Origin: Limnanthes douglasii subsp. nivea
Lineage: Eukaryota > Streptophyta > Magnoliopsida > Brassicales > Limnanthaceae
NCBI GenBank assembly: GCA_036936605.1
Contig: JAUPFV010000005.1
Coordinates: 58,920,742 to 58,984,741 of the forward strand
Length of the DNA: 64,000 bases
Direction: 5' to 3'
The notes beneath the pieces were generated by a model. The model did not search any database. It saw only the letters and a program-made list of their open reading frames with translations, and had not been told where the DNA came from. The position numbers and the translations under genes are program-made. Shown here in pieces: positions 2,831 through 53,621 of this stretch; within the stretch, counting starts at the first letter, position 1, and each line of letters opens with the position of its first letter.

Positions 2831-2839
2831 GACAAATAT

Positions 2840-5383
2840 TAGTATGTATTAGTTCTAATATTTTTGTTGCTCTATGTGTGCATATTTTTTCTGTTTGGTA
2901 TATTTCTATTTCATATACTCAACATGAATGCGAAAATGTTAACAACAAAGAGATCTTAATAAGATTTTAGCAACTAGTTTGTCATTTACACTTCTAGATA
3001 AATTATCTACATTTGTGTTTATATTCTATGAGTAGGTTACAATAATATTCAACGTACACAAATTATTACCATATTCTAACTTATTTGTGCCTAAATATTT
3101 ATTGTCATAATATATGTGTTTTTCATTTAAAAATAAAAATAACTAAAATTATTTAATAGTGAAAAATAACTTTGATATGTATCCTACAAACAAACACACA
3201 AATTAGTATTTATGACTGAATCAACCCATCAAGTGTTTTCAGATGTTGAAACTAAATTAATTTTGTAAGACAAACTATAAGTAAGATAAGCTTTCATGAC
3301 CATATGCGTTGTATTTCTCTTAGTCTTTTTTAAAATGATCAAGATCCTCAAAATAAAAACTGCATGATTTTGGAGCTATTTAAGTCTTTTTAGTTCTCAA
3401 ACATTCTGCAATTCTATATATTTGCTTCCTCTTGTTGTTTACATCGTTAAATATGTTCGTCATATTGGCCGTTGCAGTCAATTTATAACTTCCAAGCCCT
3501 TTATAAAATTGAAATAAAATGAAATTATGTGTAGTTAATTTTGACGGTAAAAACCATATGGTATTTCAAACAAACTGAGCTAAGATGTGAGAGTGTAAAC
3601 CAAACTTACAATGAAATTCTAGTAACAATAACTTTGAATGTTTTGAGTTTTTTTCCTAAGCCTATTATTTTCATGATATGATCACTAACTGTTCATTTAT
3701 ATTTCAATTTCATTAAGACTAGTTTTATCATCTTAATTTCTATTTTTTTCTATCAAAGCTTTCTTAGGCACGGTGAAAAAATTAATAGAAAATTTAATCT
3801 ATTTAGATACATAACCTCGATATATATCATGAATGTATTTTTAATGTATGATCAAAATAATATCTTTTTAATTATCTACTTTTCATATGAGTGTTCTTAT
3901 ATGAAATATTGATGACTGTTTTTTATATTTTGGATCATAATAAAGGTTGTGTTTAGAAGCATTTGATACATGTCTAATAATAAATAAACTTTACTCTTAT
4001 GTCCATATAGTTCATATCATAAACTTAATTTTATCATTGTGGAGTCGTTCATTTTATATATAAATGGTTCATCGAAATCCTTAAGCAATATTTTTCTCGT
4101 AACACACTAATCTCGATTTCTAACAATATCATTTTAACAGATTTCAATTAGTTTGTTTTCATCGTAAGGTAAAACTATATTTTTTGTGATAACTTTCTAA
4201 CTTATGAACCCAAATCAAGAAATATATGTTGAAATATTAATTTTATATAACCATTTGACATATAATTTATCTTTCAATTTTATGATTTTATCATACATTG
4301 ATGTTCACCTATGTCAAATACAAGCACAATATTCTTTTGTAATAATTAATGCTCAAGCATGTCACATTATGTATACTTTAAAACATCTTTAATGATCACT
4401 CATATAGATTACTTTTGTGATATTTTAACATTATTAGTATATTTATGATGTTCATTCATCTTAAAATAATATGAAATTTTGAAACAATTTAAGAAAAGAA
4501 TACTAAAACTTTAAACATGAAATACTATTTTCTTTTTAAAATCTCTATTGTAGTCACACCAATTATACACAAATAACATGATAATTTTATATATTATAAA
4601 GTATGTAGTATTATACGCCTCCGACATATAAATTTTATATACTTACTATAAATTAGTATAATGGATCATGTGGTTTATTGCTGGTCCCATTGCTAAAACT
4701 TATTGTTCAAATTAAAACAGTATCATAATAAGCATCATTGAGGTATTTTCAGAGCATTTCCGTAACATAAGGCCTGAATCACTACGATGAACTATGAGAT
4801 ACATATTTTTTCTCAAATAATTTTACGGTTTCAAAAACAAAACGTTTTAAAAAAATATATCCCAAGTTTACAGACATGCACAAAACCATAATCCAAATAT
4901 CAAAATAATACATAATTTAACTATATAAGTGATTTTTTTATAAATCTAAAAGCATCTTAAATCATGCATTTAAAAAACAAATCATGTGCCACACGAAGTA
5001 ATGCATAGTCTATAAGCTAAAATTAAGTCTTAATTTATGCAAACTAATTTAAAAATTGAGACTTTAAAGATCTCAATAGATTATCTTCATCATTAAAATG
5101 TCTTGATACTTGCTTTTTTGTAAACTTAATTTTACAAAATGAAAGAAAATATAAAATTTTCAGTTTTCTGTTATATATATATATAATTCATTTAAAAGGT
5201 TAATTGATCCTTCTAAGCCCAAAAACTAAATTGATAATTATATCGTATGGAGTAGGGTTGCTAATTTGTGTCACATATTAGATTCTCATCGGGTTATTTA
5301 GATTTGGTAAAAGAAAATACTAACATAAAGTTAATTCGAATCCAAAATATTTATGACTTTAAACTTCAAATATAGGTAACAAG
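2840..5383. other. AT-rich DNA between two copia relics
   Basis: No gene, LTR pair or RNA gene is recognisable. A TA run lies near 5174-5184. Part of this stretch may be the gag-side remnant of the integrase relic to its left, but no zinc knuckle or protease motif could be read. Confidence 0.35.
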
Positions 5384-5920
5384 TGTTGTATAAAGTTATA
5401 AGATGGTGCTATAAACTTCACTGTCCCAACAACTGATTATTTAGATTAAGGGATACATAAGAAAAAAAGCAATACACTTACATGTTTGTATGTTGTCTCG
5501 TACAATTGAAGAACTACAAATGAAGTCTTGATCTCAATTTATGAGAGATAGATTATGCTCTTCCTATGGGTCAACTAACTGCAATAAATACCACTTATGA
5601 TGATAGGAAGCGAGTGCTACTTGATGGATTGAATGATTGATAAAACCTACAATTATGGGAAAAAAGAAGGAGAATAGAGAAAAAACATAAATCCTAATTT
5701 TGCCTAAAGTTTTGTATTCTCGTAAATGAATAAAGGTTTAAGTGGAACCTTGTATACTTAGTAAAATATTTCATTAAATTATTAAACAGTTCCTGAATGA
5801 AACTCTTGCTTTAGATTTTGAATTTACATATTCTATTTTTTCTTTTTTAACCTCAAGGTTTCCTAATCCACTATAATCCGATATACTGGCCGTTGCAGGA
5901 GATCATAACCTTTGTTGGGG
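5384..5920 (-). repeat. 3' LTR of old copia element
   Basis: It aligns with the right copy over most of its length. Shared blocks include GAGAGATAGATTATGCTCTT (5542-5561 here, 10318-10337 in the right copy), the TTAGTAAAATATTTCA region near 5758, and a common end around GATCATAAC. The start is set by the shared TGT-GTATAAA/TGTCGCATAAA block. Boundaries are uncertain by some tens of bases. Confidence 0.7.
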
Positions 5921-8520: not shown

Positions 8521-8699
8521 ATCTTTCTTTTCCCTTCTCTTTTCTAGATCCTGAAGGTGTAGCATGTAAATCTTCAATATATGAATTCTTTCTATTGTTT
8601 CGAGGGGAGATTCTGCCGACACTAACCATATTGGCCTCTTTGTTTGCTTACACTAATATTTTTCTTCCACATTGACCAGATTTGCAATAAGAGTGGTCA

Positions 8700-9463
8700 T
8701 GTCCCACTTATTCTCTAGGAAATCATATATAGTATCAAGGACTTTAAACTTTGAAGGGAGATATAGAAAAATATAAGCCATTATAACAGTCCCATGCTAC
8801 TCAACGTTTAATACCTTGAGTTTTCCATGGATCTTAGCCATCAGATCTTACCATTTCCCTTTTATTTTATAGTAGAGATATTCACAATTAAGTTTTTAAT
8901 TTTAATTTGAGGGGAGTTAACAAAAATATTCTCTAAATGGGAAATCTATGTATTTAGCCAATTTCATGTTGACCCCACTCTATAAGACATATCGACTAAG
9001 GCGATTAAAGTGTTCCCACCGCTCCGAGCACATCCTTTCCTCAAGAGTGATTTTTTTTGTAGGAGCAAGTGGTTGGACCTCTCTAAACTAATTATCAATG
9101 TCAGTAAGTCCCAACATGAATAAAAGTTTCTTTTTCCACTATATAACTTGCACCCAACATGAATTAGAACCCGAAGTGAGTTTTTTAGTTGAGATTCATT
9201 AACTGAGAAATCAATTAATAAAAAATATGAATTAGTGAAACATGTACCAAACTTATCTAAATACATATACTTGATTTTATCAGGTTATAAATTATGATTG
9301 GGCATTCATATGTAATGCACTCATCATAATCTTTAGTCGACAGTAGAGTCAATACTTTAAGGTTAGACAATATTGATTCTATGGCATATATGAAATCAGC
9401 CAAACCTTCCGTGGGGGCCATACCTGGCTGATTCATGGTAACTGAACCAACCTTTTGCCACAA
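8700..9463 (-). pseudogene. Probable gag remains of old copia element
   Basis: This lies between the zinc knuckle and the 5' leader, where gag belongs. Two open stretches remain, 9257-9463 and 8964-9266, in different frames. They have no strongly diagnostic motif, so the call is mostly positional. Confidence 0.4.
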
Positions 9464-10805: not shown

Positions 10806-11106
10806 CGTCGTCGAATATCCATTATATGAATTACTTTAATTAATTGTACATATATCAAATGAATATTCTGAATGCGCACATGAGATAATGAAACGTACCA
10901 ATTCAAGATTTTAGTACAATTCAAGATTTCCTTACTACGTGAACCTATTTTACTGAATTTAATAATAGATTACACTGAACAAAAATATGTTACCACAAAA
11001 AATTCGCTTAAACATTAAAACTCAAAACACCTACTATATTAAAAAATCTTATGAGTTTTTATATAGTTTGTATAAGTTTTGGAGTCTATATGTGTGGCAT
11101 GAAATT

Positions 11107-11584
11107 TGAAGATTGAAGAAGAGAGAAGAAAAGGATTTAAAATTGTATAACTGATTCTCTTAATTGAATTGTAACAAATAGTACAGTTTTTATAGTAGCA
11201 GTAGGAATCTAATTGGTTAGGTAGTTTTGCCAGCTAGTGTAGTTTGTTACAAAGATTGTTACACCCTATAATTTATTCAATAGGTAGTTTAATAAGAGTA
11301 ACTAGTCCACAACAACATCAGAACGTGTGATGTAGTCCATAGGCTTTGCTGGACTCGACATGGGCCTGTGTGAATAGCTAGACCGACCCGATTGGAGGCC
11401 CAAACCATTAATACCCTTGAAACCAATTCGACACAGATGAGGGTTGTCTGAAGAAACCCTAAAACACATTCTCTCCTTTCTATCTCTTGTACACACATAA
11501 AATCCAGTAGCCATGAAAGATCAGGTTGAAGTTTCAAGCAACTCAATGTTGCCTTGAAACTTCACCGGTCACATATTCTTTACA
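11107..11584 (-). repeat. 3' LTR of copia element
   Basis: 478 bp, starts TGAAGATTG and ends TCTTTACA, co-linear with the right LTR without indels. A pyrimidine run (TCCCCCC) follows at 11585, i.e. a purine tract on the coding strand. Confidence 0.95.
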
Positions 11585-16349: not shown

Positions 16350-16361
16350 GCTCTGATACCA
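16350..16361 (-). promoter_or_regulatory. Primer-binding site, tRNA-iMet
   Basis: GCTCTGATACCA on the plus strand is the exact complement of TGGTATCAGAGC, the standard plant copia primer-binding site. It lies 3 bases left of the 5' LTR. Confidence 0.95.
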
Positions 16362-16364
16362 AGT

Positions 16365-16842
16365 TGAAGATTGAAGAAGAGAGAAGAAAATGATTTAAAA
16401 TTGTATAACTGATTCTCTTAATTGAATTGTAACAAATAGTAAAGTTTTTATAGTAGCAGTAGGAATCTAATTGGTTAGGCCGTTTTGCCAGCTAGTGTAG
16501 TTTGTTACAAAGATTGTTACACCCTCTAATTTATTCAATAGGTAGTTTAATACGAGTAACTAGTCCACAACAACATCATAACGTGTGATGTAGTTCATAG
16601 GCTTTGCTGGACTCGACATGGGCCTGTGTGAATAGCTAGACCGACCCGATTGGAGGCCCAAACCATTAATACCCTTGAAACCAGTTCGACACAGATGAGG
16701 GTTGTCTGAAGAAACCCTAAAACACCTTCTCTCTTTTGTATCTCTTGTACACACCTAAAATCCAGCAACCATGAAAGATCAGCTTGAAGTTTCAAGCAAC
16801 TCAATGTTGCCTTGAAATTTCACCGGTCACATATTCTTTACA
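16365..16842 (-). repeat. 5' LTR of copia element
   Basis: 478 bp, about 96% identical to the left LTR by hand count (17 substitutions, no indels). Confidence 0.95.
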
Positions 16843-28196: not shown

Positions 28197-28651
28197 ATCT
28201 GCTTTTTCCTTAGAGAAAGATCTTCTCCTTTGTACAACTAGTACAACATCACTTCAGATAGACAACTTCTAAGAAATAACATCAGCTGGCACTCCAGTGA
28301 CATCACTGTTACACCATGCGAAGACATGTTGATTATTCATAAAAAGGGACAATAACTAGTGTTTCAAATCTGGTGACAATTTTGTACCAATTTTAACATT
28401 CCCGCCCTCAGCGAGGGAGTGGGTTTCAACCTCCTCAATAAGTATTATGACACTGGGAGCCTCCATGGGATCATCAATTCATTCTCATCAGTCGAAAGGC
28501 TCTAATAACTGCTAATCTTGTTAAACTTGACGGCCTCTAAAGTCTTAGGGGCAAGACCTGTTGCATAACATTCCCTGGCTATCTTATGGCTGCTCCGGAC
28601 AACACCTACTTGTCCCTAGACAGCATACTTTAAACATTGGTGGATCGTAGA

Positions 28652-29435
28652 TGATGTAGCAAAGACTGCGAACAGACTGGTTTTTTTCCTAGGTATCGGA
28701 ATTGGGTCAAACAGGTACTCAAATCGAAGATTTCGACGAGCCCATCAGATTTCAAAAATGTGACTTAGTCACAAAGTTTGAGGTTTAAATCAGGAAATAG
28801 TCCCTTGACTGTCACATTTTCTTTCATTTAGTCCTTCGACTAAAAAATCACCGGCGAGGGTCCCTCGACTATCCCATTTTCTTTCATTTAGTCTTTCGAC
28901 TTTAAAATCACCGGTGAGGGTCCCTGGACTTTACAAAACTTTATAAATTTAGTCCCTGATTTGGGGTTTTTTTCTTAGATTCACGGACTAAATTTATAGA
29001 TTTTTCAAAGTCCAGGGACCCTCACCGGTCATTTTAAAGTCGAAGGACTAAATGAAAGAAAATGGGATAGTCGAGGGACCCTCACCAGTGATTTTTTAGT
29101 CGAGGGACTAAATGATAAAAAACGTGATAGTCGAGGGACTAGACAACGATTTAAGCCTAAAGTTTGATACCCAGATTCGACCTGTAGAGCCTTCGAAAAC
29201 CAGTTTTAATAGTTTAGCATTATTTTATTTATTTATTTTATTTTAAAATATTTATGTAATTTTCCTTATTTGGAATTAGGGTTTTGGGTCATGCTATATA
29301 AAGCATCCTATACCCTATTTTGCCGTCAGACTTTGATTAATTGAATTTTGAGAATTATTATGAGTCTCCTTATTTCTCTAACCTAGGGTTAGGGTTTTAT
29401 CGTTGTCTATTTCTTCTATTTCTGCTTCGTTATCA
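28652..29435 (+). repeat. 5' LTR of short element, interrupted by MITE
   Basis: It matches 30893-31281 on both sides of the inserted 378-bp foldback element. It carries a TATA-like GCTATATAAAGCATC near 29293, an A/T-rich promoter and a conserved end. Without the insertion and its duplicated target it is about 398 bp. Confidence 0.9.
28781..29158. mobile_element. Foldback MITE inside the 5' LTR
   Basis: The left and right halves are inverted repeats of about 190 bp; both arms carry the motif AGTCC-TCGACTA and ACCGG-GAGGGTCCCT. The ends are AGGTTTAAATC and GATTTAAGCCT. AAAGTTTG is duplicated on both sides (28773-28780, 29159-29166) and occurs once in the 3' LTR, which proves insertion after the retroelement landed. 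An 8-bp duplication fits hAT; if the following A is counted it is 9 bp, which would fit Mutator. Confidence 0.9.
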
Positions 29436-29438
29436 TAT

Positions 29439-29450
29439 TGGTATCAGAGC
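29439..29450 (+). promoter_or_regulatory. Primer-binding site, tRNA-iMet
   Basis: Exact TGGTATCAGAGC, 3 bases after the 5' LTR. Confidence 0.95.
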
Positions 29451-29455
29451 CCAAC

Positions 29456-30388
29456 AATTCCTGCTACGCAGATACAGGAATCATGTTTCGGGTACCTCTT
29501 GATTTGAATGCTAGAATAGAGAACGACATCTTCCAGTTTACCTACACAATTGGAGGAAGAATTTGCAAATTTGTAATTGATTCAGATATCTATGAGAATC
29601 TGATTTCAGAGGAGGCTGTTCAGAAACTGGCATTGAAGACTGAAGCTCTTCCATACCCGTACATACTGTCAGGACTGATAGAGTACACTGAGGTAACAGT
29701 TTCTAAACGGTGTCAAATTGCATTTTCTGGTGGTAATTACAAAGATACAACATGGTGTGACGTAGTTCCTATGGACGTTTATCATCTAGTTTTAGGAAGT
29801 CCATGGCGATTTAAGAGAAATTCTACTTATGATAGTAGAACAAATTGATATAGTTTTGTGAACGATGGTATCAAGTTTATATTAGTGCCATCTAGAGTAA
29901 TGTCTCCAAAACCACCGCCAGTTAAGGAGTTTCATGCTCAAATTGCACCAGCTGCCGATCTTAGTTGTGATGGTAAAACCGTGTCTGACTCCGTGTTTGA
30001 TAAACCAGTCTATGATACACATATTTTTGAAGATATATCTGGGTTGGTATTTGACAAACCAGTCTACGATGAGTATGATGGTGATTGGGATGATGAAGAT
30101 CTAATTGATATTGAGGAGAAACTTGTAGATCGAGATATTACCTCAGGCTTCAATACACCAGACTACATCGCTTCAGACCTTCTATTGAAGAAGCACTGCA
30201 AACTAGCAGATTTTATCGTGGAGATGCATCTTCCATGTATTTTATGTTATCCTAAAATCAAACATTTGATTCGGTTTTCAGTGGATACATGTTGTCGTAT
30301 TGGAAAAATAGATGATGATATTTTTGTGTTTGAGATTATAAATAAATTGATAAAAGAAAAGAATAGTGTTTTAATGGATAAAAGATAA
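29456..30388 (+). pseudogene. Gypsy-type retropepsin and linker in the short element
   Basis: 29438-29848 is open and reads as the plant gypsy aspartic protease: ICKFVIDSDIYENLIS in the active-site position (family usually has IDSGS-EN; here Asp-Ser-Asp), KRCQIAF, then WCDVVPMDVYHLVLGSPW. A stop at about 29848 precedes a second open frame to 30388, which begins with the usual YSFV-DGIKF-L-P continuation. It then holds a repeated acidic linker (DKPVYD occurs twice). The Gly of the DSG triad is replaced, so proteolytic activity is unlikely. This is the only pol domain in the element. Confidence 0.85.
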
Positions 30389-30415
30389 GGTTTTGTAATA
30401 GAACCTGGAGGATTT

Positions 30416-30895
30416 TTGTGTGATGGTTGGGGAAATAAAAGAAAGTGTTACAAGTTAAAAATAGAAGATTGCAGTGTTTTGAATCTGCTGGCAGAAATAT
30501 ACTCTGAAGAGCTTGAGAAGCCATCTACTATTCAACAAAGAGGAATTGTTCCTTTCTGCAAGGGTTTTGATGTGATACAACAAGCACAGTCTGGAACTGG
30601 AAAGAAAACAACTTTTTGCACGTGCAAAGTTGATGTTGTGCTTAGTAAATGGGTTGAAAAAGCGGACATAGAACAAGTGGGTGGAGTATATCTTGATACT
30701 GGTGACCACGGTACTGCTGATGACATGGTAAAGAGGGACAAAGCTGAGAAACCACTTCTTGACAAGAGCTGCAGCATTCAGATTCTCACCTCTTACACCC
30801 TTATGATCGGTGAACACGCCAATGTTTTTTCAGTTCTTTCAATGTTTCAGCGTTCCGAATTCGAGGTCGAATTCTTCCCAACCGGGGAAGGATGA
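30416..30895 (+). pseudogene. Open frame with eIF4A-like DEAD-box fragment
   Basis: This is a 159-residue frame. Residues about 21-68 (DNA about 30478-30621) match the N-terminal part of plant eIF4[21 protein letters not shown] (Q-motif region, Gln-Gln preserved), then [20 protein letters not shown] with the motif I P-loop, and GKKTTFC where eIF4A has GKTATFC. Similarity stops abruptly at C-T; the DEAD box and the second RecA domain are absent. The remaining residues are not recognised, except that the end resembles the 3' end of plant gypsy internal regions. The P-loop Thr after GK is Lys, so no helicase or ATPase activity is expected. The fragment is in the same orientation as the element. 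Confidence 0.85.
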
Positions 30896-31281
30896 TGTAG
30901 TGAAGACTGCGAACATACTGGTTTTTTTCCTAGGTATCGAAATTGGGTCAAACAGGTACTCAAATCGAGGATTTCGACGAGCCCATCAGATTTCAAAAAT
31001 GTGACTATGTCACAAAGTTTGATACCCAAATTCGACCTGTAGAGCCTTCGAGAACCAGTTTTAATATTTTAGCGTTATTTTATTTTAAAATATTTATGTA
31101 ATTTTCCTTATTTGGAATTAGGGTTTTGGGTCATGCTATATAAAGCATCATATACCCTATTTTGCAGTCAGACTTTGATTAATTGAATTTTGAGAATTAT
31201 TCTTCTGAGTCTCCTTATTTCTCTAACCTAGGGTTAGGGTTTTATCGTTGTCTGTTTTGTATAATTTCCGCTTCGCTATCA
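30893..31281 (+). repeat. 3' LTR of short element
   Basis: 389 bp, intact, with TATA-like GCTATATAAAGCATC at about 31135. A purine tract directly precedes it, and GTAGA follows it. Confidence 0.93.
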
Positions 31282-37028: not shown

Positions 37029-38565
37029 ATATGCAAGATATGGGTTATTTGATGATACGAGATGCGACACCATCCTAGTTGGGTTTGGAAAAAACAACTC
37101 ATTCAGTGATCTAGTGTTGTTCATCTTAAAAAACAAAGTCGTTGGTACTTTTAGATTTTTTTTTGAGCTACGGTTTGAAAGATACGAACTTTAAAAAAAA
37201 TATAAAGTAATAAATATAAGGTTTGGTTCAAAAAATGACAAGAGTCATACTTTTGGTTTTTCCTTGTACAGATTGTAGTTTGAAAACTTGACTCGGTATG
37301 CTTGGGTAAATCACCTTTATTGTAATTAATAATAATATTTAATTTATATAAATCATCATTACAATCCAAACGCATGTGCCAATATTTTGATTTTGATAAA
37401 AATGAATTTTTTTATTTCTAAATGAACGCTTGTAAGTAGAATTTTCTAATAATAATAAAACTCTAAAAGAATATGTATATAAAATTTCTTCTAATAATAA
37501 GAAAAAGTGTGCAATAGTTAATAACGATAAAAAAACATAAATGTATCCAATTTGGCATGATCTCAATTATGCTATATAGATAAACATTTTGCCAACTATG
37601 GTTTTTTCTTAGATAGAAAAATATTTTGCCAGTAGTGGATTTTTCTAAAGTGTCTTATATAAAAAAATATAAACATAAGTGGTTAGTGTTGTATCAATCT
37701 ATCATGTATTTTCACACACTAAAACTAAATTAATCTCTGCATAGACCATTAAGTTAATTTACCATTATTGGCCATATAGGTTTTATATCTCTCACAACTC
37801 TTCTTATAGATCCTTGTTGTGTAAGAACACCTTTTTTTGGTTTATTTTTTGCCTTTTTTTAGATATGATCATAATTATGTAGTTGTAACATTCTTCTTAT
37901 GATTTTTCTTTTTGTTTAAATTTATCCCATATCGGTTGGATAATATTAATTTGGATTGCACAAGAAGAATAAAATGTCATCTTCTATTAAGGTGTCTATG
38001 GGAAAGTGTTAGCCTTATATATTCTAATATGGTATCAAAGCTTGGTTTTCCTTAATTCCTTGAGTGTATATCTTCTCCTTGTCAACAAGATTTGAAATGC
38101 AGAACTGAGACAAAATACAAAGATGCTCTATCTTAGACTAGTATTATTATAAAGTATCAAATATAGTAAATTGAGACATAAAATATAAAAATAAAACTCA
38201 TAAGCCTCGTTCGGGTAGACAATACTAAGAGCTTTAATATTTGAGTTAATTAAAGTTATTATGACGATGTACTATCAGATCTTATATTTCACTTTATATT
38301 TTAGATAGAAAACACATTGAGCATGTTTAACCAAGCTTCACAATTTTGTTCTCAATATGGAATGCACGTTCTTAGAAAATTTAATCTCACTGGATAATAA
38401 ACTCAAAAACATGTTTGGGAATCTGTTCTAAAGTATGATTATTCTTAATTTATTGAACTCAATAACCTCACAAGTAATTTAAACTTAGAACATGTATAAT
38501 GTACATGTTAAAGCACATGTTAACTTTTTTAATAAAAAAATCTCCAATGAATGTGTTAGTCATAT
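37029..38565. repeat. Direct duplication, copy 1 (1.54 kb)
   Basis: Nearly identical to 38770-40305 over its whole length, with a handful of substitutions and one 1-bp indel in a T run. It starts with ATATGCAAGATATG at the edge of the minisatellite and ends inside the left end of a MITE (CCAATGAATGTGTTAGTCATAT). Inside, TGGTATCAAAGC (38030-38041) following an LTR-like stretch marks an old LTR/primer-site remnant. No gene is recognised. Confidence 0.95.
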
Positions 38566-38576
38566 AACCTTAAATA

Positions 38577-38773
38577 AAGACCCATATAACCTACAATATA
38601 ATGGTTTATCTCTAAAATATTTAAATATTTACTTATTGTTCACACTATAAATGTTAAAATATACCTTAAATAAACTTGAACATACATCACATTTCTAATT
38701 GACGAATTATATAATTTTTTACATCTCTTAAATTCCCAAATAAATATTGGGACACTGATCAACAGAAAAATAT
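38577..38773. repeat. 197-bp block shared with 59223-59419
   Basis: Identical to 59223-59419 except for one base near its right end, and in the same orientation. It fills nearly the whole spacer between the two 1.54-kb copies and overlaps the first 4 bases of copy 2. Confidence 0.95.
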
Positions 38774-40305
38774 GCAAGATATGTGTTATTTGATGATACG
38801 AGATGCGACACCATCCTAGTTGGGTTTGGAAAAAACAACTCGTTCAGTGATCTAGTGTTGTTCATCTTAAAAAACAAAGTCGATGGTACTTTTGGATTTT
38901 TTTTGAGCTACGGTTTGAAAGATACGAACTTTAAAAAAAATATAAAGTAATAAATATAAGGTTTGGTTCAAAAAATGACAAGAGTCATACTTTTGGTTTT
39001 TCCTTGTACAGATTGTAGTTTGAAAACTTGACTCTCTATGCTTGGGTAACTCACCTTTATTGTAATTAATAATAATATTTAATTTATATAAATCATCATT
39101 ACAATCCAAACGCATGTGCCAATATTTTGATTTTGATAAAAATGAATTTTTTTATTTCTAAATGAACGCTTGTAAGTAGAATTTTCTAATAATAATAAAA
39201 CTCTAAAAGAATATGTATATAAAATTTCTTCTAATAATAATAAAAAGTGTGCAATAGTTAATAACGATAGAAAAACATAAATTTATCCAATTTGGCATGA
39301 TCTCAATTATGCTATATAGATAAACATTTTGCCAACTATGGTTTTTTCTTAGATAGAAAAATATTTTGCCAGTAGTGGATTTTTCTAAAGTGTCTTATAT
39401 AAAAAAATATAAACATAAGTGGTTAGTGTTGTATCAATCTATCATGTATTTTCACACACTAAAACTAAATTAATCTCTGCATAGACCATTAAGTTAATTT
39501 ACCATTATTGGCCATATAGGTTTTATATCTCTCACAACTCTTCTTATAGATCCTTGTTGTGTAAGAACACCATTTTTTGGTTTATTTTTTGCCTTTTTTT
39601 AGATATGATCATAATTATGTAGTTGTAACATTCTTCTTATGATTTTTCTTTTTGTTTAAATTTATCCCATATCGGTTGGATGATATTAATTTGGATTGCA
39701 CAAGAAGAATAAAATATCATCTTCTATAAAGGTGTTTATGGGAAAGTGTTAGCCTTATATATTCTAATATGGTATCAAAGCTTGGTTTTCCTTAATTCCT
39801 TGACTGTATATCTTCTCATTGTCAACAAGATTTGAAATGCAGAACTGAGACAAAATACAAAGATGCTCTATCTTAGACTAGTATTATTATAAAGTATCAA
39901 ACATAGTAAATTGAGACATAAAATATAAAAATAAAACTCATAAGCCTCGTTCGGGTAGACAATACTAAGAGCTTTAATATTTGAGTTAATTAAAGTTATT
40001 ATGACGATGTACTATCAGACCTTATATTTCACTTTATATTTTAGATAGAAAACACATTGAGCATGTTTAACCAAGCTTCACAATTTTGTTCTCAATATGG
40101 AATGCACGTTCTTAGAAAATTTAATCTCACTGGATAATAAACTCAAAAACATGTTTGGGAATCTGTTCTAAAGTATGATTATTCTTAATTTATTGAACTC
40201 AATAACCTCACAAGTAATTTAAACTTAGAACATGTATAATGTACATGTTAAAGCACATGTTAACTTTTTTAATAAAAAAATCTCCAATGAATGTGTTAGT
40301 CATAT
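38770..40305. repeat. Direct duplication, copy 2 (1.54 kb)
   Basis: Partner of 37029-38565. Its right end continues into the complete MITE at 40228-40903, so this copy keeps the original right-hand context, while copy 1 keeps the original left-hand context. Confidence 0.95.
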
Positions 40306-40903: not shown

Positions 40904-41012
40904 TTATTTTTTAATCTTTTAAAAATGAAAAACTAAGAAAAAAAGCACATGAATAATTAAAAAATAGCATATAAACATCACATACACATGACACGTATAT
41001 ATCACCATATTT

Positions 41013-41850
41013 AAGTGTTCAAGTAATATATATCGCCATATTTATTAGTGTGACATCGTTCGGTTATTGTGCTATAAACTATTTCTAGAGTTATTTTAAA
41101 AGAGAATTGATGTGGGTTCATTATCACATATGAAAAAAAAATTATTTCGGTCAATTTGCTCATATCGTGAAACATAATGAAACCAATCATCATTGAATGT
41201 TGAGTTGCACATTAACGTGCATTTCTTAATGAAATAAATATATATTACATGAGTCTTTACATATGATGAATGTAAGTATAATATTTATTTGAGTTGATTG
41301 ATAAAAGTAACTAGTCACGATGTGAATGACCAAATCTCGTGAATGGATAATTTACCAATGACGATCATTAGCAATTCTTTTATCTCTAGATTATGTTGAC
41401 ATAACAATTTAGTTTTTAAATTCTAATTTTCTAAGTGTTCATGAAAACTATCTCGTCATAGTTATTGTATGAGATCATTAGGTCGATATGCTATATAGTA
41501 TAGGCCTTTTAAAAGAGAGTTGATGTTGGTTTATTTGCACATATGAAACAATATCTTTATTTGGGTCAATTCTCTCATATCGTAAAATAGAATGAAACTA
41601 TTCACCATTTGATATCGAGTTGTGTATGAAAATTCAATGCATAATGGTATAAATATATTATGCATTAGTGTTTACATATGATACCAGTAAGTATAATTTT
41701 TATTTGGGGCTGACTGATAAATATAATTTGTCACGATGTAAACAACCAAATTCTGTGAATGAATAACTGACTAATAGGGATCAATATCACTTATTTTGTC
41801 TTTATATTCTACTACAAACTTTAGTGAGTTCGCTTTTTTTTCTTCTAATT
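41013..41850. repeat. Diverged head-to-tail duplication, about 420-bp unit
   Basis: Copy 1 is 41013-41432 and copy 2 is 41433 to about 41850. Both start AAGTGTTCA and share ordered blocks: TTTTAAAAGAGA-TTGATG, GGTCAATT-CTCATATCGT, TTTACATATGAT, and TCACGATGT-AA then CCAAAT. Identity is moderate with many small indels, so the duplication is old. Confidence 0.8.
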
Positions 41851-42281
41851 GATATTCAGAAAATTAAAATATAATATACATATATAATGTTATTTTTCGC
41901 AAAATGTGATTAGTTGTCTCATTCAACCAAATGTTTTATTGTATCTTTTGGTTTTATTTCTAATAAAAAATCTGAGATAGAAACTATATGTTATTCTAGC
42001 TTGCAAGATGCAACGTTTGAAATGATAAAGGAATTACTAGTTCTTGAATTTGGTTAATTTACATGTCAAAGTGAATCTACGTGGAAAAGGTAGCTCGTCT
42101 AAATAAAACATATAGCAAAATATTATACTCATACATATAGGATTGACTATTCTGAGATTTCTTTTTGGTAACAAAATTTTACCTCTCTTCATTTATTTAT
42201 TTCTTTAGAAACTTCAAATGATTGGTCATTGCATCAATTAGATATCTAAAATGTATTTTTACATGGAAAAAATCAAAAGCA

Positions 42282-42625
42282 AATATTTATGGATCAACCA
42301 AATGAGTTTATTTCTTAACATAATAATTGAAATTTATGTGATGAGTACAAGTTTTATATGGTTTAAAACGAGTCATTGTGTTTGGTTTGGCATGTTTAGT
42401 AATATAGGATTTGAATTTAAAAAAAAAAACGGTTGTGATAAGTTTGTGTTTAATAAGAAAATATATATGGATCAACCATTTTGGTTTATTTCTCAAATGA
42501 ATAATATAAATTTATGCGATTTGTAAAAGTTTTATATGGTTTAAAATGAGCCTAGTGATACAAACATAGGATTTGGATTTTAGAAAAACGGTTGTGATAA
42601 TTTTGTTTTTCATAAACGATGTCTA
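42282..42625. repeat. Tandem duplication, about 179-bp unit
   Basis: Copy 1 is 42282-42460 and copy 2 is 42461-42625. Shared blocks are TATGGATCAACCA, AGTTTTATATGGTTTAAAA, ATAGGATTTG and AAACGGTTGTGATAA. A plus-strand 91-codon frame across it (42251-42526) is a by-product of the repeat. Confidence 0.85.
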
Positions 42626-42629
42626 CAAA

Positions 42630-43235
42630 TGGTATTATACTCATAGTTGTATAATATGATATTTTTATTATAAGGAATGATAAAAGTCGTGTTGTTTTTG
42701 TAAAATTTCAAAATAAAAAAAACATATTTTTTTTGAAATAGTACTAAAAAGATTAGTCGTCCACGTCAAGCTCACTCATCACTACAATAATTTGGCTCAT
42801 TATTATTGTAAACACATATCTCGTCATGGTGTTAGGTTGTTGCACTCACTGCATTTCCGTAATTGTCAATTTACTGCAACAAAAAAGAACCTTTTGCCGC
42901 GCTAATGAAGGTTGAGACAATATATTTTTCCCTAAAATTGCAAAAAAAAATCAAACTTAAAAATAACGCGTACATCTTCACTTAAGGTCTGAAACATTTA
43001 TTCATATATTTTGACAATAATATAGATATAGTTATTAACTCTCAATAGCTAAAAATATGATTTAAATCAAAATCGAAAGAATATTTTATAAATATTTTAA
43101 TATGTATTATCTACAAAAATATTTTCCAATTGTTTTATTTAAAAAAAAATCTAAAAAACCGAAATAAACGATCGCCATACCTAGAGTGACTCTCGTACCA
43201 ACTGTAAAAATGGATCGCTTGATTTTCTCTTTGTA
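42630..43235. other. AT-rich intergenic DNA
   Basis: No gene or repeat with clear limits is seen between the tandem duplication and the LTR element. Confidence 0.45.
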
Positions 43236-43240
43236 CTTCA

Positions 43241-43734
43241 TGTTGGGAATTTTGTTTAGAGATTTCCCGATAAACTCTAAGGTCTTGTTTTAACAATTTC
43301 AGATTGAAATTATTTTGGTGGTTCTCCAAAATTTTCAACCGGATAAAATCAGAGCATATGCATTTGAACAACGAGAATGGATTTTTGTTGTTATTGTCTT
43401 TTCTTCAACAGAACCATCCTTATTTATTCAACCAAATTTCAAAAACTGTAAAACAATTTTAAGTCCAATAACGGCTATAATTTTAAATGATAAAAATGGG
43501 CAAAATTATTCAAATTCAAATTTGAATTAATTTTACAAATTCAAAATTTCCATGAATATTCACAATAGCCTTATCATTTAAAATAAATTTAACCACAACC
43601 AGGAACCGTCCCTTGGACCCACTAATCATAATATATTCTAACAAGCGTGTACTTCACACTCTCCGACTTACTTGATAATATATTACGACTGCATTGGTCG
43701 ACTAGTCAATCCAATTACACTAAAATATCCAACA
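43241..43734 (-). repeat. 3' LTR (494 bp)
   Basis: Co-linear with 46001-46494 without indels. Followed by ATATTCCCCCATTTTA, a purine tract on the element strand. Confidence 0.95.
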
Positions 43735-43750
43735 ATATTCCCCCATTTTA
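43735..43750 (-). promoter_or_regulatory. Polypurine tract
   Basis: AAAATGGGGGAATAT on the minus strand, directly beside the 3' LTR, the correct position for priming second-strand synthesis. Confidence 0.85.
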
Positions 43751-43999
43751 GTGCAATTCATGATTAACTAAAACAAACTCACAACAAATAACAAATTTAT
43801 GCATAAATGAAATATCGTAACGATTGAATTTCATATTAGTATATTACACAGTCCAAATATTCGAATATCAAGGTATCACTAAGGACTGAACCTTTACTAT
43901 CCATAATGAATACTCAAAGATAATATACACATAAATTTACATTCTCAAATGTTCTTACTTGACACTATCTTTTACTAGCCTTGTGTCCTTATCCTTCTT

Positions 44000-44975
44000 A
44001 AGCATATCAAAGCCAAGTACTAGCTTCTTGAAGCGGCTAAACTTCATGCTTAAATAGGTAGATATTTTACTCTTTCACATGCATATGCAATTTTTCAAAA
44101 GAGTTATTAAGAAGATAAACTTCAACCTCCACAACTTGCATGTCTGAACACATACTTTGGGATAATACTACTAATGTGTTCCAATCTCTAGATGTTAAGC
44201 TTTCCACATTGAATTCAGCACCTAACGTCATATTAGATGGGAATTGAGTATCTTAACATCAGAGATTTCAAATGGACTTTAATCACATCCCAATAACCGA
44301 TTGTGCACAAGATCTTTACTCAACCTTTTGGTTAAATAACCAGCTACATTTTATTGAGTTCTCACAAACTCAACTGAAATAACATCATGCGTGATGCGCT
44401 CACGAATCATACTCTGTCTAACACCTAATTGTCTAGACCTGCCTTCGTAAACTTGTCTAGTTACATTAGCCAAGGCAACTTCACTATCACATCCGGTAGA
44501 TTTAGGTGATATCTTTTGGGCCACAACGGAATTTCATACACTAAATTTCTTAGCCAATAAGCTTCCTTGTTAGCTGTTGCTAATGGCACAAACTCTGATT
44601 CCATTGTTGAATCAATAATACTAGTTTGTCTCTTAGATGCCCAAAATATAGCACGTCACCCAAGTAAAACTACACATCCACTTGTGGAAGTGTGGTCTTC
44701 CATATTCAAAATATAACTCGCATCCAAACATCCTTCAAGTACGGAAGGAAATCCGATGTGAACTAGGATTGCCAGTATACCTACTAAGCTTTCGAACAAC
44801 AAAGGCAATATCTGTCCTAATGTTAGTCATGCCATACATATAACAAGAAGCCTATGAGCTTCTTCTAAACTTTTCATCTCAAAACTAGATGATAAGAATG
44901 TCTTTGTTTCATCAACTTGATTTGGTTAATGCCAAAAATCAACATGTCATCCACATATAAACGAATCATAACTCA
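44000..44975 (-). pseudogene. Copia RT active site and RNase H (truncated)
   Basis: On the minus strand the sequence opens with LYVDDMLIFGIN, the copia active site with both Asp present. It passes through RT thumb and RNase H sequence: a C-MTNIRTDIAF block, then NGIRVCAI--- near ESEF-type sequence, YEGRSRQLGVRQSMIRERI (usual Y-GKSRHI-LRH--VR) and NVAGYLTKRLSKDL (usual N-ADP-TKGL). Stops and shifts are present. Everything upstream of the active site is missing. Confidence 0.8.
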
Positions 44976-44980
44976 TTTAC

Positions 44981-45068
44981 GAATAACATCAAAATTTACC
45001 AAATTCGTAAATTATATTATATGTGAATAACATCAAAATTTACCAAATTCATAAATTATATTATATAT
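44981..45068. repeat. 44-bp tandem repeat, two units
   Basis: Two nearly identical 44-bp units (44981-45024, 45025-45068) beginning GAATAACATCAAAATTTACC. They lie at the junction between the copia RT remnant and the captured gene fragment. Confidence 0.9.
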
Positions 45069-45233
45069 AAAGTTATATTCAATTGCATAAATAATTCAAT
45101 AAATCACTAATATTATGCCACAAACTTTACATGCATGACACAGTATATAAATTCTAATTATATAAATATATATAAAACTTTACTAACCAGGAGCCGTATT
45201 TCTTTAGTGAAGGAAAGTCCAGCAATTTCCTTT

Positions 45234-45870
45234 TTAATATATATTAATACAAGAAACTTTACTACACCTGTGCCTCCCACAATTCTTCTTCCGCACACAT
45301 GGTTTATCGCATGAGAATCTCTCTTTATCCAATGTTTTTTTGTAGCATTCCACAGTCCGAGAAGTCGATCCACATCCACATTTTTGGGCTACAGAAATCA
45401 AACAAGGTGGGCACTTGCAGCATGGCATACTTCATTACAGCTATGCACCCTGCAAGGAAGGGACTTCCCACATATATTCAGACAAGTAAGAATTGGATCC
45501 AAGCAACTCTCTCTAGCCTCTTGCAAGCTTGTTTTCCCACAATAGCATGACTTAACCCTGCCCGACATTAAGTCACACTCACCACAAGGGCTTGGATGAC
45601 AAATTTCATCACAAATGTGATTACCACATCCACGCTGCCTTCCACAAGTTGAACTGCAGCAGAAAACCCCATCTTCGGTTTTCACTTCTCCCTTCACAGT
45701 CATCTCCCCACAAAGGACAACCTCCGTCTTTTTTTTGTTTTTGTTTTTTTTTGCAAAAACAATTAGCATTGACCAAAACCTGGCAAGGATCACATGGACC
45801 CACATAGCATACCTTCTCACATTGGTGCCTCCCACAGTTGAGAATTTTATTGCAGCGAGACCATAATTGA
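45234..45870 (-). pseudogene. NF-X1-type zinc-finger gene fragment (NFXL2-like)
   Basis: Three overlapping minus-strand frames, joined by two frameshifts (near 45.74 kb in a poly-A/KKKQKQKK stretch and near 45.41 kb), give consecutive NF-X1 zinc-finger units. These are CNKILNCGRHQCEKVC then GPCDPCQVLVNA; CGRQRGCGNHICDEICH then CGECDLMSGRVKSCYCGKT; CGKSLPCRVHSCNEVCHAA then PCLISVAQKCGCGSTSRT; and CVRKKNCGRHRC. The Cys/His spacing and the linker motifs (CDLM-GRVKSCYCGKT, GSTSRTVECYK) fit the plant NFXL2 subtype, a nuclear zinc-finger regulator of stress and clock responses. The fragment covers about 200 residues from the middle of a protein of roughly 900. It starts and ends abruptly inside an LTR retrotransposon and is in the same orientation. 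It cannot encode a full protein. Confidence 0.9.
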
Positions 45871-46000
45871 TGCTTTAATACTTGATTATGGATTGAAGAT
45901 GACAACAAATATCTTCATTTCAATCTTCATACAAATCATGAAACAGAAACATCTTTGTACAAATCTCTTCACAAAACAAGAACATATAATTTCAATCTTT

Positions 46001-46494
46001 TGTTGGGAATTTTGTTTAGAGATTTCCGGATAAACTCTGAAGTCTTGTTTTAACAATTTCAGATTGAAATTATTTTGGTGGTTCTCCAAAATTTTCAACC
46101 GGATAAAATCAGAGCATATGCATTTGAACAACGAGAATAGATTTTTGTTGTTATTGTCTTTTCTTCAACAGAACCATACTTATTTATTCAACCAAATTTC
46201 AAAAATTGTAAAGCAGTTTTAAGTCCAATAACGGCTATAATTTTAAATGATAAAAACGGGAAAAATTATTCAAATTCAAATTTGAATTAATTTTCCAAAT
46301 TCAAAATTTCCATGAATATTCACAATAGCCTTATCATTTAAAATAAATTTAACCACAACCAGGAACCGCCCCTTGAACCCACTAATCATAATATATTCTA
46401 ACAAGCGTGTACTCCACACTCTCCGACTTGCTCGATAATATATTACGACTGCATTGGTCGACTAGTCAATCCAATTACACTAAAATATCAAACA
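46001..46494 (-). repeat. 5' LTR (494 bp)
   Basis: Partner of 43241-43734. CTTCA follows directly as target duplication. On the element strand the sequence after the LTR (AAAGATTGAAATTATATG) does not resemble the usual primer-binding site. Confidence 0.95.
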
Positions 46495-46499
46495 CTTCA

Positions 46500-47480
46500 A
46501 CCCGTATTATGAACAATAATGTATTAGATTAAAAAGATACTATCATGTAACCTTGAAGTCATTGGTTGTTTATAAAAGCCTTTCGGCCAATACGCACATT
46601 AAAAATTTGTTAAAAAATGATATATACTAGAATCTGAAGAACCCTACATATAACTAAAAATACGTTAGAAAAAAATAAATTTTATTTTATTTATTTTAAA
46701 AATTATTATCATTACAATTAATAATAAATTATTCATTCAATTTATATAAATAGTTAAATTATAATATTTATGGGTCAAGAGAGTACGTGTTAGATTTACC
46801 GAATGTTAAATTTGTTCTATCCGTAAAATATAATCTATGGGACTCATAAATATTAATATATTATAAATAAAGTTATTAGTTTTATTACCAATATCACACG
46901 AAACCAATAGACAAACCAAATAATAGCTAATTAAAAACAATAATATTATCATATTATTATTTGATAGTTCAAATTTAATTTAAGATAATCACTTTCTTTA
47001 TATGATAAATATTTAAATAACCTAAAGTATATCAAATTAACATCCGATGGTTCATATCAAACCATCAATTCTTACAAAATCCTATAACAATCAACATAAT
47101 TAAATCTAATATCAATTTTGTTATCATTTGTAAAATTTCTTTAAAAAATTATTTCTCATAAATTGAGATATATTGGGCCAAAATCATTGAATCATATGTT
47201 ACTATTATATACTTATGAAATATTTTGACAAGATTGAGGACAAACACTTCGAATTGGATTTGAATGAATTCTGTATAATACAAACTTGTGAAATGATAAG
47301 TTGTTGTTAGAATTTTAATCACTTGCAATATTCGAATTTATGTATAAAACCCGGCATGAATTTAAAGATTCACTTCTATTACAAAATAATTTAATATATT
47401 TTGTCTACCTATTTCTTTTATACCACATCACTCGAAATATATACCCAGATTACTTTGTTTTAATATATATTGTTCAGTAA
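46500..47480. other. AT-rich intergenic DNA
   Basis: Very AT-rich (many ATTTA and AATAT runs); nothing recognisable. Confidence 0.5.
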
Positions 47481-48470
47481 AAGCTTTAAATGAATTTACT
47501 GAAGATGGAATATAAGCTCACAGACAAAGTCTCGGTGTTAGAGGTTTTGACTTCTACATGGTGTTGGGCTTTATAAAAGAGTTCAGCTTATGAAAGGTTT
47601 GGATTCAGTTTAGTAGGTTTTGGTCACTATAGGGTTGTGATCTCATCAGAGAGTTTAGTCCCGGATGATTTTGATTATTATAAAGGAAGTCAAGTCTCAG
47701 CATGAGACCAGTATCGATGGGAGAGAAGTCTTGGTACTAAGAGAAGAGACTTTGGGAAGTTGCTTTTAGAAAAGTTGAAAACTTCAACTATATCGAAATT
47801 AATCTAGATTGATTTGGTATGTTGGAAAAGGTTTAATCAAAGAATAGTTGATATCTCAAGGTGGATTAATTTTGCTATAAGTGAATTGGATGCATTGTTT
47901 TATTAAAGTTGTTCATTTGAAATATTATACATGTTGTAATAATAAATTGTCGTATGATTTGATCAAATTCGTTGATCAAGATCTTATTGTAACAATTTTG
48001 GTTTGTTTTTTTAGCATGGTGTATGTTTATCCTAACCTAGACGCATTTGGATCATATATATATATATATACAATTGATCTGACATCTATAAAGAGTATCT
48101 TTAATCTTGAAATCAGAAAGAGAATGTGTGCTTATTGAATTGAGAGTTTGTAGAAATAGATAAAGCTTTGTTTGTGAGAGAAAATGCCTAATAAATCAAG
48201 TGATTTCAGGGTTGATAAATTTTTGAAGATAATCACTTGAAAGACACTTAAGATAAATAATTAAGGTTGTAAGATATTAGTGGAATTTGATACTCTATTT
48301 TGAGAAGTTTGGACGTTGCATATTTACTAGTATTTTGTAATTTTTTTGTAAAAGTTTTATATATAAAATAATATTTGTTTGCCAATCTATGTAGGATTTT
48401 TCTATAATCTGAACAAAATAAATCTTGTGTTGTTCCCTTTCGTTGTTTCTCTTCCATTTATCAAAGTTTC
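47480..48470 (+). repeat. Possible LTR-like remnant (Tork-type copia)
   Basis: The stretch 48380-48440 (GTAGGATTTTTCTATAATCTGAAC, interrupted, then TAAATCTTGTGTTGTTCC) resembles the R-U5 end of the copia LTRs at about 20.23 and 35.05 kb. Sequence from 47.5 kb onward is G-richer than its surroundings. No partner LTR is seen. Confidence 0.3.
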
Positions 48471-48484
48471 ATATATTTTAGGGA

Positions 48485-48860
48485 ATTGATTTATGATTTA
48501 TAGATAAACTCTGAAGTCTTGTACAAAGATAATTTCAAATTGAATTATTTTTTGTGGTTCTCCAAAATTCAAGCAGATGAAATCGGAGATGTTTTTTATA
48601 TGTTGAAAAAGAGAATGACATTGCGTAAAACAAAGTATTTTCAAATTATAACAAATAGGGTAAAATTTGAAAATTTAAATTCAAATAGATTTTCAAAATA
48701 GCGAAATTCAAACTCGACCTAGTAAGGTGTTTCGTTCCTTGGCACACCTCGCCATGCTCGCTGGTCAGAATATAATTAACAATCGTGCATTCTTCTAACT
48801 TGTTCGATAATATAGTACGATTATATTGGTCGTTTATTCAATCCAATTATACTAAAATGC
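48485..48860 (-). repeat. Diverged LTR related to the NFXL2-carrying element
   Basis: It shares ordered blocks with the 494-bp LTRs: GATAAACTCTGAAGTCTTG, GTGGTTCTCCAAAATT, TCGATAATATA-TACGA, and TCAATCCAATTA-ACTAAAAT. It is shorter and clearly older. No internal region follows, so it is a solo LTR or fragment. Confidence 0.75.
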
Positions 48861-49370
48861 CACTATGGCAGTAACTTGCTTAGAAACCAAAATACCAACA
48901 CGGAAGCAAAACTAACTAGAAGCTTAAGTTTGCGTTCTTCAGTTCAATTAACCTTGATTCTTTGTTAGGTAAATCACGAAAATCATGCTGAACAAAGTGT
49001 CCTGTTAACTAGGTCTTCTAATGGAAAGTTTTACAATAATTCATATACATATATGTATAGATTAGTAAAATCAAAGAATTAGATTCATATGTGATGGACT
49101 ACTAGACCATCACATTTCTTATGCCTGCAATACAACACAACATTAATCATGAATCTCATTCTTGGATTTTACAAATGTAAAATTGGATAGTATCACTCGT
49201 TCCAGTATTCGAGATCCCTATGCTCACTATGGAAAATCTAATTCTTCTATGACTAGTAGTACCCACATTACTTTACGATAGAAAAACCACATGGGTGTGT
49301 ACCTTGTATGTGAAGACTCATATTAGGTGACAGCTTCAACTTAAAGATTCTTTTTCCAAGACAACTTTTT
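48861..49370 (+). promoter_or_regulatory. Upstream region of the NAC gene
   Basis: About 500 bp of non-coding DNA upstream of the likely TATA box. No specific cis-element is claimed. Confidence 0.4.
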
Positions 49371-52600: not shown

Positions 52601-53621
52601 TTTTAATCGTATAACTATCCACTTTCCTATATATAATTCTTCGATTAAAATCTGTCCGGTTTTAGTGCATTGACTATTCATTTCGGACTATTGTGCATGT
52701 TTATGTTTATTTAGAAGCCTATTTTTATCGAAAAGGATAACAAAAGACTAATTTTATCAAAAATGAATAGTCGACGACTATTTGTCACGAAAATAAATAA
52801 TCATAGTAAAAAAAGATGGACGTTTTTAGTTAGAGAAATTATCTGTCACAAAAGTGGATAGTTAATGGACTATTCGAAGCTTCAAAGTTAAGTCTTGTTA
52901 TATCCATTTAACCGATATGCTTCGTATACTTGATTTCGTCATCTAGCCCGACATGCTTCACACTTGAATTCATACGGAAATTTATAGTAAATTCAAACTT
53001 TAAGACTTTAGCCAACCAATTTCACCATATGATAGAAATAATAGATGTTGTTTACTTGAACAGGATGAATGGGTAGTCTGCCGAGTATTCCAGAAAAGCG
53101 CAGGAGCTAAAAAATACCATACAAGCCAAACAAGATCAATGAATCCTTACATGGATTTAGGAACTACAAGTGTTATGCAAGCACCAATGATGCATACAAA
53201 TCCACCTACAAATATAAACAACAACAACAACTATCAATTCTCGGTAGTGGAAAGAAACAACTACGTAGCAAATAACACAGCCGAAATGGCAGAGCTTTCT
53301 AGGGTTTTGAGAATGAATGGTGTTTCGTCAACTACTTCCACTTCAATCAATTTACCTATGCAATCTCACAGTAACTATCAAGCAGCTCTCGGATTAGGGG
53401 GAGGAGCTCTTAACTTGAATCTAGGATCAACAATGGACCTCGCGGCAATGAATCGTCATCATCAACAACAACAACAGCAACGTCAAGATGCAGCAGCAGC
53501 GTCGCTGATGGGTGCTCCTACTAATGTCTCGTTTGTTTCAGAGAATGGATATGGTGGTGGAAATAGGTTCATGGGTATGGATCATTGTGTTGATCTTGAT
53601 AGTTACTGGCCCTCATATTGA
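49699..53621 (+). CDS. NAC-domain transcription factor, three exons
   Basis: Exons 49699-49870, 51938-52209 and 53064-53621 have GT-AG borders and join in frame to 333 residues. The NAC domain spans about residues 10-158. Subdomain A is [16 protein letters not shown] has [13 protein letters not shown] has [15 protein letters not shown] and TNRAT; D has [32 protein letters not shown] and VMHEYR; E has [12 protein letters not shown]. Intron positions after DLP and before DEW are the usual ones in NAC genes. The C-terminal activation-type region is Asn-, Gln- and Ser-rich, with a His-His-poly-Gln tract, a short LNLNLG stretch and the end motif DLDSYWPSY. It acts in the nucleus as a DNA-binding dimer. 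The closest subgroup appears to be the CUC2/NAC92/NAC100-like clade, so roles in organ boundaries or senescence are possible but not proven here. MGGKEW replaces the common MGEKEW. All exons are intact. Introns of 2067 and 854 nt are enlarged by foldback elements. Confidence 0.95.
50186..50263. repeat. 39-bp tandem repeat in NAC intron 1
   Basis: Two units (50186-50224, 50225-50263) starting ATCTCTTAAACTTG and ending AATAAAAGGT, differing at one base. The second unit ends where the MITE inverted repeat begins. Confidence 0.95.
50640..50700. repeat. Hairpin 1 in NAC intron 1
   Basis: A perfect 14-bp stem (AACTGATTCCGAGA with its complement, 50655-50687) closes a 5-nt loop. An outer stem (TTCTGAAC with GTTCAGAA, 50640 and 50693) extends it with a few bulges. 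Confidence 0.9.
50731..50785. repeat. Hairpin 2 in NAC intron 1
   Basis: A perfect 25-bp stem with a 5-nt loop (TGGCC). Its inner 10 bp (GATTCCGAGA) are the same as in hairpin 1; the outer 15 bp differ. Confidence 0.95.
52522..52890. mobile_element. Foldback element in NAC intron 2
   Basis: The left arm (about 52530-52600, with GTCCATTTACTATC, GAGAGATAGTTTCTC and ACTAAAAAACGT) is an imperfect inverted copy of the right arm (about 52810-52890, with ACGTTTTTAGTTAGAGAAATTA and GATAGTTAATGGAC read in pieces). The interior also holds repeated GGACTATT/ATAGTCG words. End points and target duplication are not resolved. Confidence 0.7.

Follow-up and report, generated by a model that had tools for sequence, protein, structure and literature searches.

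The stretch of DNA analysed here, 64,000 nucleotides from Limnanthes douglasii subsp. nivea and referred to as the window, contains a long terminal repeat (LTR) retrotransposon that carries a piece of host coding sequence for NF-X1 zinc fingers. The element is a complete insertion of 3,254 bp on the minus strand (43241-46494). Very probably, a Copia-type family, itself probably self-primed, captured part of the host gene NFXL1 and the chimera was then copied to several sites, the window element being one of these insertions. Read from sequence, the copies that share a junction show that capture preceded insertion, that transposition followed capture, and that cargo was later lost or exchanged. 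In the history proposed, a largely non-autonomous Copia-type family would have picked up the NFXL1 part, in sense, between its leader and a remnant of reverse transcriptase (RT) and RNase H, the capture presumably occurring by template switching during reverse transcription with a co-packaged RNA. The chimera would then have been mobilised and inserted at several sites by enzymes that other copies supplied in trans. Further transposition, deletions, separate insertion dates and the loss and exchange of cargo would have followed, and in the window copy the cargo would have been shortened on both sides while its coding frame decayed.

The NFXL1 fragment and its source gene

The fragment lies at 45249-45857 (minus strand, a DNA match to 4540-5124 of the gene locus L009) and measures about 609 bp, somewhat less than the 640 bp of the preliminary description, whose assignment to the sense orientation of the element stands. 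Among the tblastn matches listed for protein relatives, it divides into a collinear series of three blocks in element sense: 45857-45744, 45736-45413 and 45413-45249. Two frameshifts, a 16-nt insertion and a 1-nt deletion, lie between the blocks, and no stop occurs inside them. The Pfam family zf-NF-X1 is matched by one open reading frame (ORF) of the window at E 1.2e-05 and by another at 0.0019, which is under the curated cut-off, and a third ORF, over the 3' block, has no Pfam match. As a reference set, the 77 relatives longer than 900 aa were taken from the list of 90 protein matches described below, leaving out P0089-P0092 and the shorter ones. Forty of the 42 cysteine or histidine columns conserved in at least 90% of these 77 are kept in the window fragment, which agrees with the column majority at 147 of 199 comparable columns (for these plant relatives themselves, median 160, lowest value 110). 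Judged by such comparisons, the NF-X1 stretch is a decayed gene piece rather than a chance motif. The window copy differs from the gene at 14 of 584 sites (3 synonymous and 11 not, a ratio of 3.67 where 3.19 is expected without selection), and sister copy L010 at 34 of 1,326 sites (11 synonymous and 23 not, one of them a stop; ratio 2.09, expected 3.05). Both counts are low, and changes that arose on the branch of the gene itself are among them; nothing in them suggests that the window piece is maintained as a protein.

A protein search with the fragment returned 90 matches, 42 to 73% identical, of which 30 bear NFXL1-type names; the rest are unnamed, hypothetical, otherwise named or have truncated names. 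The fragment had at first been called NFXL2-like, an identity that finds no backing here: none of the 90 matches shows an NFXL2 name, with the limit that no NFXL2 protein was compared directly. The host genome (1.78 Gb, 633 contigs) contains nine matching pieces at six places, the window included. One of these, L009 (C441:94.11 Mb), is an intact gene with a single ORF of 1,244 codons between stops, aligned at 74% to residues 71-1114 of P0015, an unnamed protein of 1,116 aa from the list of 90. The preliminary description had proposed a search for an intact source locus, and such a locus exists, though of NFXL1 rather than NFXL2 type. It lies 35 Mb from the window element, which occupies 58.96-58.97 Mb of the same contig.

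Since an intact gene is present at another locus, the fragment in the window is not ancestral there. The counter-reading raised in the preliminary description, that the zinc-finger piece is ancestral in place and two LTRs inserted around it, is therefore next to impossible, and nothing was found in its favour; against it stand also the 96.6% identity of the two LTRs (no gaps, 12 transitions among the 17 mismatches, Kimura two-parameter distance 0.035) and the one common 5-bp duplication outside them. P0001 and P0002, partial NFXL1-like proteins from public contigs that by eye are close to the Vitis protein P0087, seem to represent broken copies of NFXL1 scattered through another plant genome. 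Viral contigs scanned with the NFXL1 piece yielded no relative.

Sister copies and the common junction

Besides the window element, five copies carry NFXL1 pieces (L010, L011, L012, L013 and L024; gene coordinates are those of L009). Of 2,354 first-look candidates, the search with the LTR covered the 40 with the best scores, from which 14 further places (L022-L035) were taken by LTR similarity, three of them, L033, L034 and L035, covered over part of their length only. Counts of LTR pairs refer to 14 two-LTR copies and leave out L013, which has one LTR in the stretch taken. L010 (contig C1) holds gene positions 4494-5826, and this includes the 4540-5124 of the window. L011 and L012 (both C223) hold 4494-4799 and 4931-5076, L013 (C112) holds 4704-4799 and 4931-5076, and L024 (C334), chosen by its LTR alone, holds 5280-5622. 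In L010, L011 and L012 the gene starts identically at 4494, and each of the three has one and the same 1-nt deletion next to the junction. Because this 5' junction is common to copies at different loci, the chimera must have transposed after capture, and one capture would explain all three. In L011, L012 and L013 the same 131 bp are deleted internally, and the gene piece ends at the same 3' edge, 5076. Past this edge L011 continues for 14 bases as in L012 and L013 and then passes into other sequence, which indicates a further exchange of its cargo, later than the first capture.

The window copy and L024 would derive from the same capture. Identity between the window copy and L010 is 96.2% over 43241-45266, 3' LTR included, and most of the same interval aligns at 84.7% with L012 and 84.6% with L013; L011 matches at 95.0% over 43241-44387 and at 74.1% over 44560-45066. 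The window's cargo is shorter than that of L010 on both sides. At its right edge, gene and element are joined through the 6-nt repeat TGTAGT, which L010 has separately in both, and at its left edge it lacks, relative to L010, leader sequence and the initial 46 bases of the captured stretch. Of the two frameshifting changes in the window fragment, the 1-nt deletion is absent from L010-L013 and the 16-nt insertion from L010, among the aligned copies. L024 matches element sequence up to the 5' junction and then diverges, reading TTTGCAG where L010 reads TTTGCAC; over its 343 gene bases it has three changes in common with L010 and 18 of its own, L010 having four of its own.

In L010 a leader of 522 bp precedes the gene, and a separate mobile element carrying NFXL1 might be imagined to have inserted into the retrotransposon, especially as the search for such an element was not exhaustive. 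Nested insertion of this kind is nonetheless very improbable: the three inverted-repeat pairs found in 41000-49000 do not flank the fragment, and the gene in L010 directly follows leader-type sequence that is also present in L024.

Five-bp target duplications flank 12 of the 14 two-LTR copies, and L032 in addition. The copies lacking one are L010, in which the 5' LTR match is incomplete, and L031, in which an end resembling a polypurine tract precedes the first LTR. The distance between LTRs, 0.035 in the window element, is 0.021 in L010 (again with the 5' LTR match incomplete), 0.010 in L011 and 0.016 in L012. Within L025 and within L026 the LTR pairs are identical, so that copies carrying cargo have moved recently; these youngest copies would allow capture to be studied near its occurrence. 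The earlier suspicion of a mobile chimeric element with a host gene piece is supported, since other copies carry the same gene and three of them the exact 5' junction, and what was a suspected chimera has acquired a traceable history, with a source gene, a common junction, sister lineages, deletions and later exchange of cargo.

Architecture, priming and other cargos of the family

The window LTRs are paired direct repeats with TG..CA ends. As had been described, both are 494 bp long with CTTCA directly outside on either side, a pattern seen directly in the sequence: the left copy of the duplication lies at 43236..43240 (TGAAG in element sense), followed by the 3' LTR at 43241..43734, and the 5' LTR at 46001..46494 is followed by the right copy at 46495..46499. 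The polypurine tract AAATGGGGGAATAT (element sense; 43735..43748, minus strand) abuts the left LTR, which places the element on the minus strand and makes the right-hand LTR the 5' LTR; the tract also occurs, with one or two differences, in sister copies. In its own reading direction the element runs from the 5' LTR through leader, NF-X1 fragment and the RT end with RNase H to the polypurine tract and the 3' LTR. The leader adjoining the 5' LTR (45866..46000) is 99.3% identical to that of L010 over 135 bp. The RT end and RNase H remnant (44276..44980), interrupted by stops and frame changes, consists of DNA common to family copies and is adjoined by a 44-bp tandem duplication found by repeat search (44981..45068, 95%). 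The copia RNase H of the preliminary description can be followed by eye and gains no support from Pfam, which has no match for any of the three tail ORFs. The label of a clean element likewise suits the LTRs and the duplication and not the interior, which is a deletion derivative with neither gag nor integrase and with no tRNA-type primer site beside the LTR. If substitutions accumulate at 1.3e-8 per site per year, the insertion in the window would date back about 1.4 million years. Neither Rfam nor a tRNA scan matched anything in the window.

Priming sets this family apart from its neighbours in the window. Next to the 5' LTR there is no tRNA-type primer site, half-tRNA primers not having been searched, and the first TGG stands 137 nt into the interior, whereas a perfect TGGTATCAGAGC occupies the expected primer place in element A (LTRs 11103-11584 and 16361-16842, with copia domains) and in the LTR-like pair B. 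This difference could be taken to favour a repair patch, in which the NFXL1 piece entered a dead copy as filler after insertion. The patch explanation is hardly credible and was dropped, because the leader is family-wide: the interior starts with a related leader from AAAGATT in 14 of 14 two-LTR copies. Other insertions with the same gene, three of them with one junction, likewise speak against it. What the leader offers instead is a putative self-priming site, AGATTGAAATTAT at 45986..45998 (minus strand), complementary to the stretch ATAATTTCAATCT at 46061..46073 in the 5' LTR. The leader pairs with its own 5' LTR over 13-14 nt in 12 of the 14 copies, 73 or 74 nt before the LTR end, and pairing with the 3' LTR is shorter (11-12 nt) in L010, L023 and L024; in L030 and L031 pairing is lost through primer-site changes unmatched in the LTR. 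In a control, 8 of 20,000 random LTRs reach a pairing of 13 nt, elements A and B reach 5 and 7 nt, and of 2,248 windows along the interior the first three offsets alone reach 13 nt. Self-priming has been predicted for the TAR lineage of plant Ty1/copia elements, with Houba and Osr-1 mentioned, in PMC6317226. The family probably belongs to this self-primed lineage, an assignment drawn from the pairing and the published prediction. Its Copia type is probable from L022, which has a copia gag ORF (PF14223, E 2.3e-37); the copies read contain broken pol remnants, and the order of integrase before RT is not visible in them.

The leader also contains GTAAGT, 136-169 nt from its start, in 12 of 14 copies, and the content downstream differs between copies. 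This motif resembles a splice donor and may be a splice site in use. A bolder proposal, tentative and on balance doubtful, is that the family, recently active and self-primed, acts as a serial collector of transcripts: reverse transcription would switch templates to host mRNAs, and perhaps to plant virus RNA, and so keep swapping the cargo behind GTAAGT against a constant background of LTRs, leader and RNase H tail. If cargos from multi-exon genes proved to be spliced, the family would be a natural record of the RNAs co-packaged with a plant Copia element.

Several cargos other than NFXL1 are supported by database matches. In L011 (cargo stretch 3752-4739) two cargos lie antisense to the element, a piece of PTPA (Pfam E 5.2e-19; PDB E 1.1e-18) and a FYVE domain (Pfam E 1.7e-16). 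L025 carries a piece of an AMP-binding ligase (E 4.1e-12) that recurs in L026, L028 and L029 at 95-98%, which marks it as one cargo in these four copies, and L033 carries, at 8611-8922, a piece of BIG (PDB 9qt9, E 2.2e-27) with no match in Pfam. Altogether, host gene pieces supported by such tools occur in 6 of the 14 copies chosen by LTR (L024, L025, L026, L028, L029 and L033), and none was found in the other eight of L022-L035, only part of whose ORFs were scanned. As the 14 were drawn from the 40 best of 2,354 candidates, these figures provide no estimate for the family.

Further cargo ORFs are less readily named. In L012 (5891-6412, minus strand) and L023 (3641-4021, minus strand), two ORFs are 69% identical and both contain DFPRLKSPGL. 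These may resemble a partitivirus polymerase, an identity that is not claimed: Pfam RdRP_1 matches the L012 ORF at E 0.17 and the L023 ORF not at all, a PDB search with the polymerase-like ORFs gave eight unrelated matches (E 0.34-1.9), and viral contigs scanned with the virus-like ORFs held no relative. Were the identity true, an RNA-only source would lie inside an LTR element; integrated partitivirus RdRp sequences have seldom been detected, according to PMC3136472. L035 has an uninterrupted cargo ORF of 430 aa (1630-2919, minus strand), a candidate for plant VPS13 that has no match in Pfam or PDB. In L024 a 213-aa ORF (3018-3656, plus strand), antisense to the element, has no match in Pfam, NCBIfam, PDB or viral contigs. 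L012 from 5133 and L013 from 5075 have in common a sense cargo after the NFXL1 piece, its ORF starting HLLVVKASDNAG; neither Pfam nor NCBIfam assigns it to a family with a convincing E-value. NCBIfam returned nothing for four cargo ORFs.

Several observations weigh against a single capture by reverse transcription. The original junction is preserved neither in the window copy nor in L024, and these two may be separate captures; the three changes from the gene common to all five aligned copies may lie on the gene's own branch. The A-run that holds the window's 16-nt insertion has other insertions in L011 and L012 (L013 has no coverage there) and is thus unstable. Similarity of the RNase H tail is independent of cargo: L030, which has no NFXL1 match, is 95.3% identical to L010 in this tail. 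The antisense PTPA and FYVE pieces in L011 are unlike the product of simple minus-strand switching onto an mRNA. Lastly, L009 has no intron in the captured region. The preliminary description held that an intronless copy would show capture at the RNA level, a proof that falls away because the source gene is itself intronless and such a copy is unable to tell RNA from DNA capture. Populus NFXL1 is stated to be intronless in PMC3176232; the part available of a wheat NFXL1 paper, PMC6814032, is uninformative on introns.

The most probable alternative is capture at the DNA level, in which a break in an ancestral element was repaired by copying a stretch of NFXL1 and the chimera then transposed. 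It would leave the same sister copies, an intronless gene makes RNA and DNA copies look alike, and the antisense pieces in L011 agree with it, as do the roughly two bases shared at the 5' junction (judged by eye), such as end-joining repair could give. This is a serious possibility, though not a probable one. Wherever both ends are seen, the cargo sits after the leader and before the RNase H tail, and several unrelated cargos occur within this one family, a pattern to which repeated errors of reverse transcription are the simpler fit, if not a decisive one. Capture through reverse transcription, followed by transposition of the chimera, is accordingly the reading preferred here.

Neighbouring features and known systems

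Elsewhere in the window, 48486-48858 resembles an LTR and belongs to a related but diverged family (two pieces match at 75-79%); the repeat searches of the window found no partner for it, and its sequence differs in the stretch that would pair with the primer site. A direct duplication of about 1.5 kb, 98.7% identical and 1.74 kb from start to start, lies at 37029-40305. An LTR-like repeat pair at 28650-31281 includes an inverted repeat (28778-28938/29001-29161), and a perfect TGGTATCAGAGC stands at 29439. An exon at 53004-53621 has NAC transcription factors as its named relatives, with identity of at most 46% among the matches listed (120 of 253) and no match in Pfam.

A literature search for NFXL2 with retrotransposons returned nothing related; NFXL1 with retrotransposons was not searched, and novelty is not claimed. 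The Bs1 element of maize is likewise an LTR element with broken pieces of three host genes, as described in PMC13317346, and L011 carries pieces of NFXL1, PTPA and FYVE. In contrast to Bs1, the present family is probably of Copia type and self-primed and has copies with different cargos, and there is no evidence of a translated chimeric protein. Genes captured by LTR elements number 672 in rice, 1,343 in sorghum and 424 in maize in PMC3726574, where, as here, host gene sequence lies in full-length LTR elements and is amplified by transposition; in this case, however, one family was followed copy by copy, and the source gene and a common junction were identified. With the TAR elements Houba and Osr-1, the family has in common the missing tRNA primer site and the predicted self-priming (PMC6317226, a survey in which 93.4% of all elements have 5-bp duplications), whereas the window copy and most copies read lack coding domains. 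Pack-MULEs and gene-carrying Helitrons are also families that pick up many host gene fragments (PMC13317346), but those are DNA transposons and the family described here is an LTR retrotransposon. Gene capture by LTR elements is thus of a known kind, and the repeated exchange of cargo within one family is its notable part.

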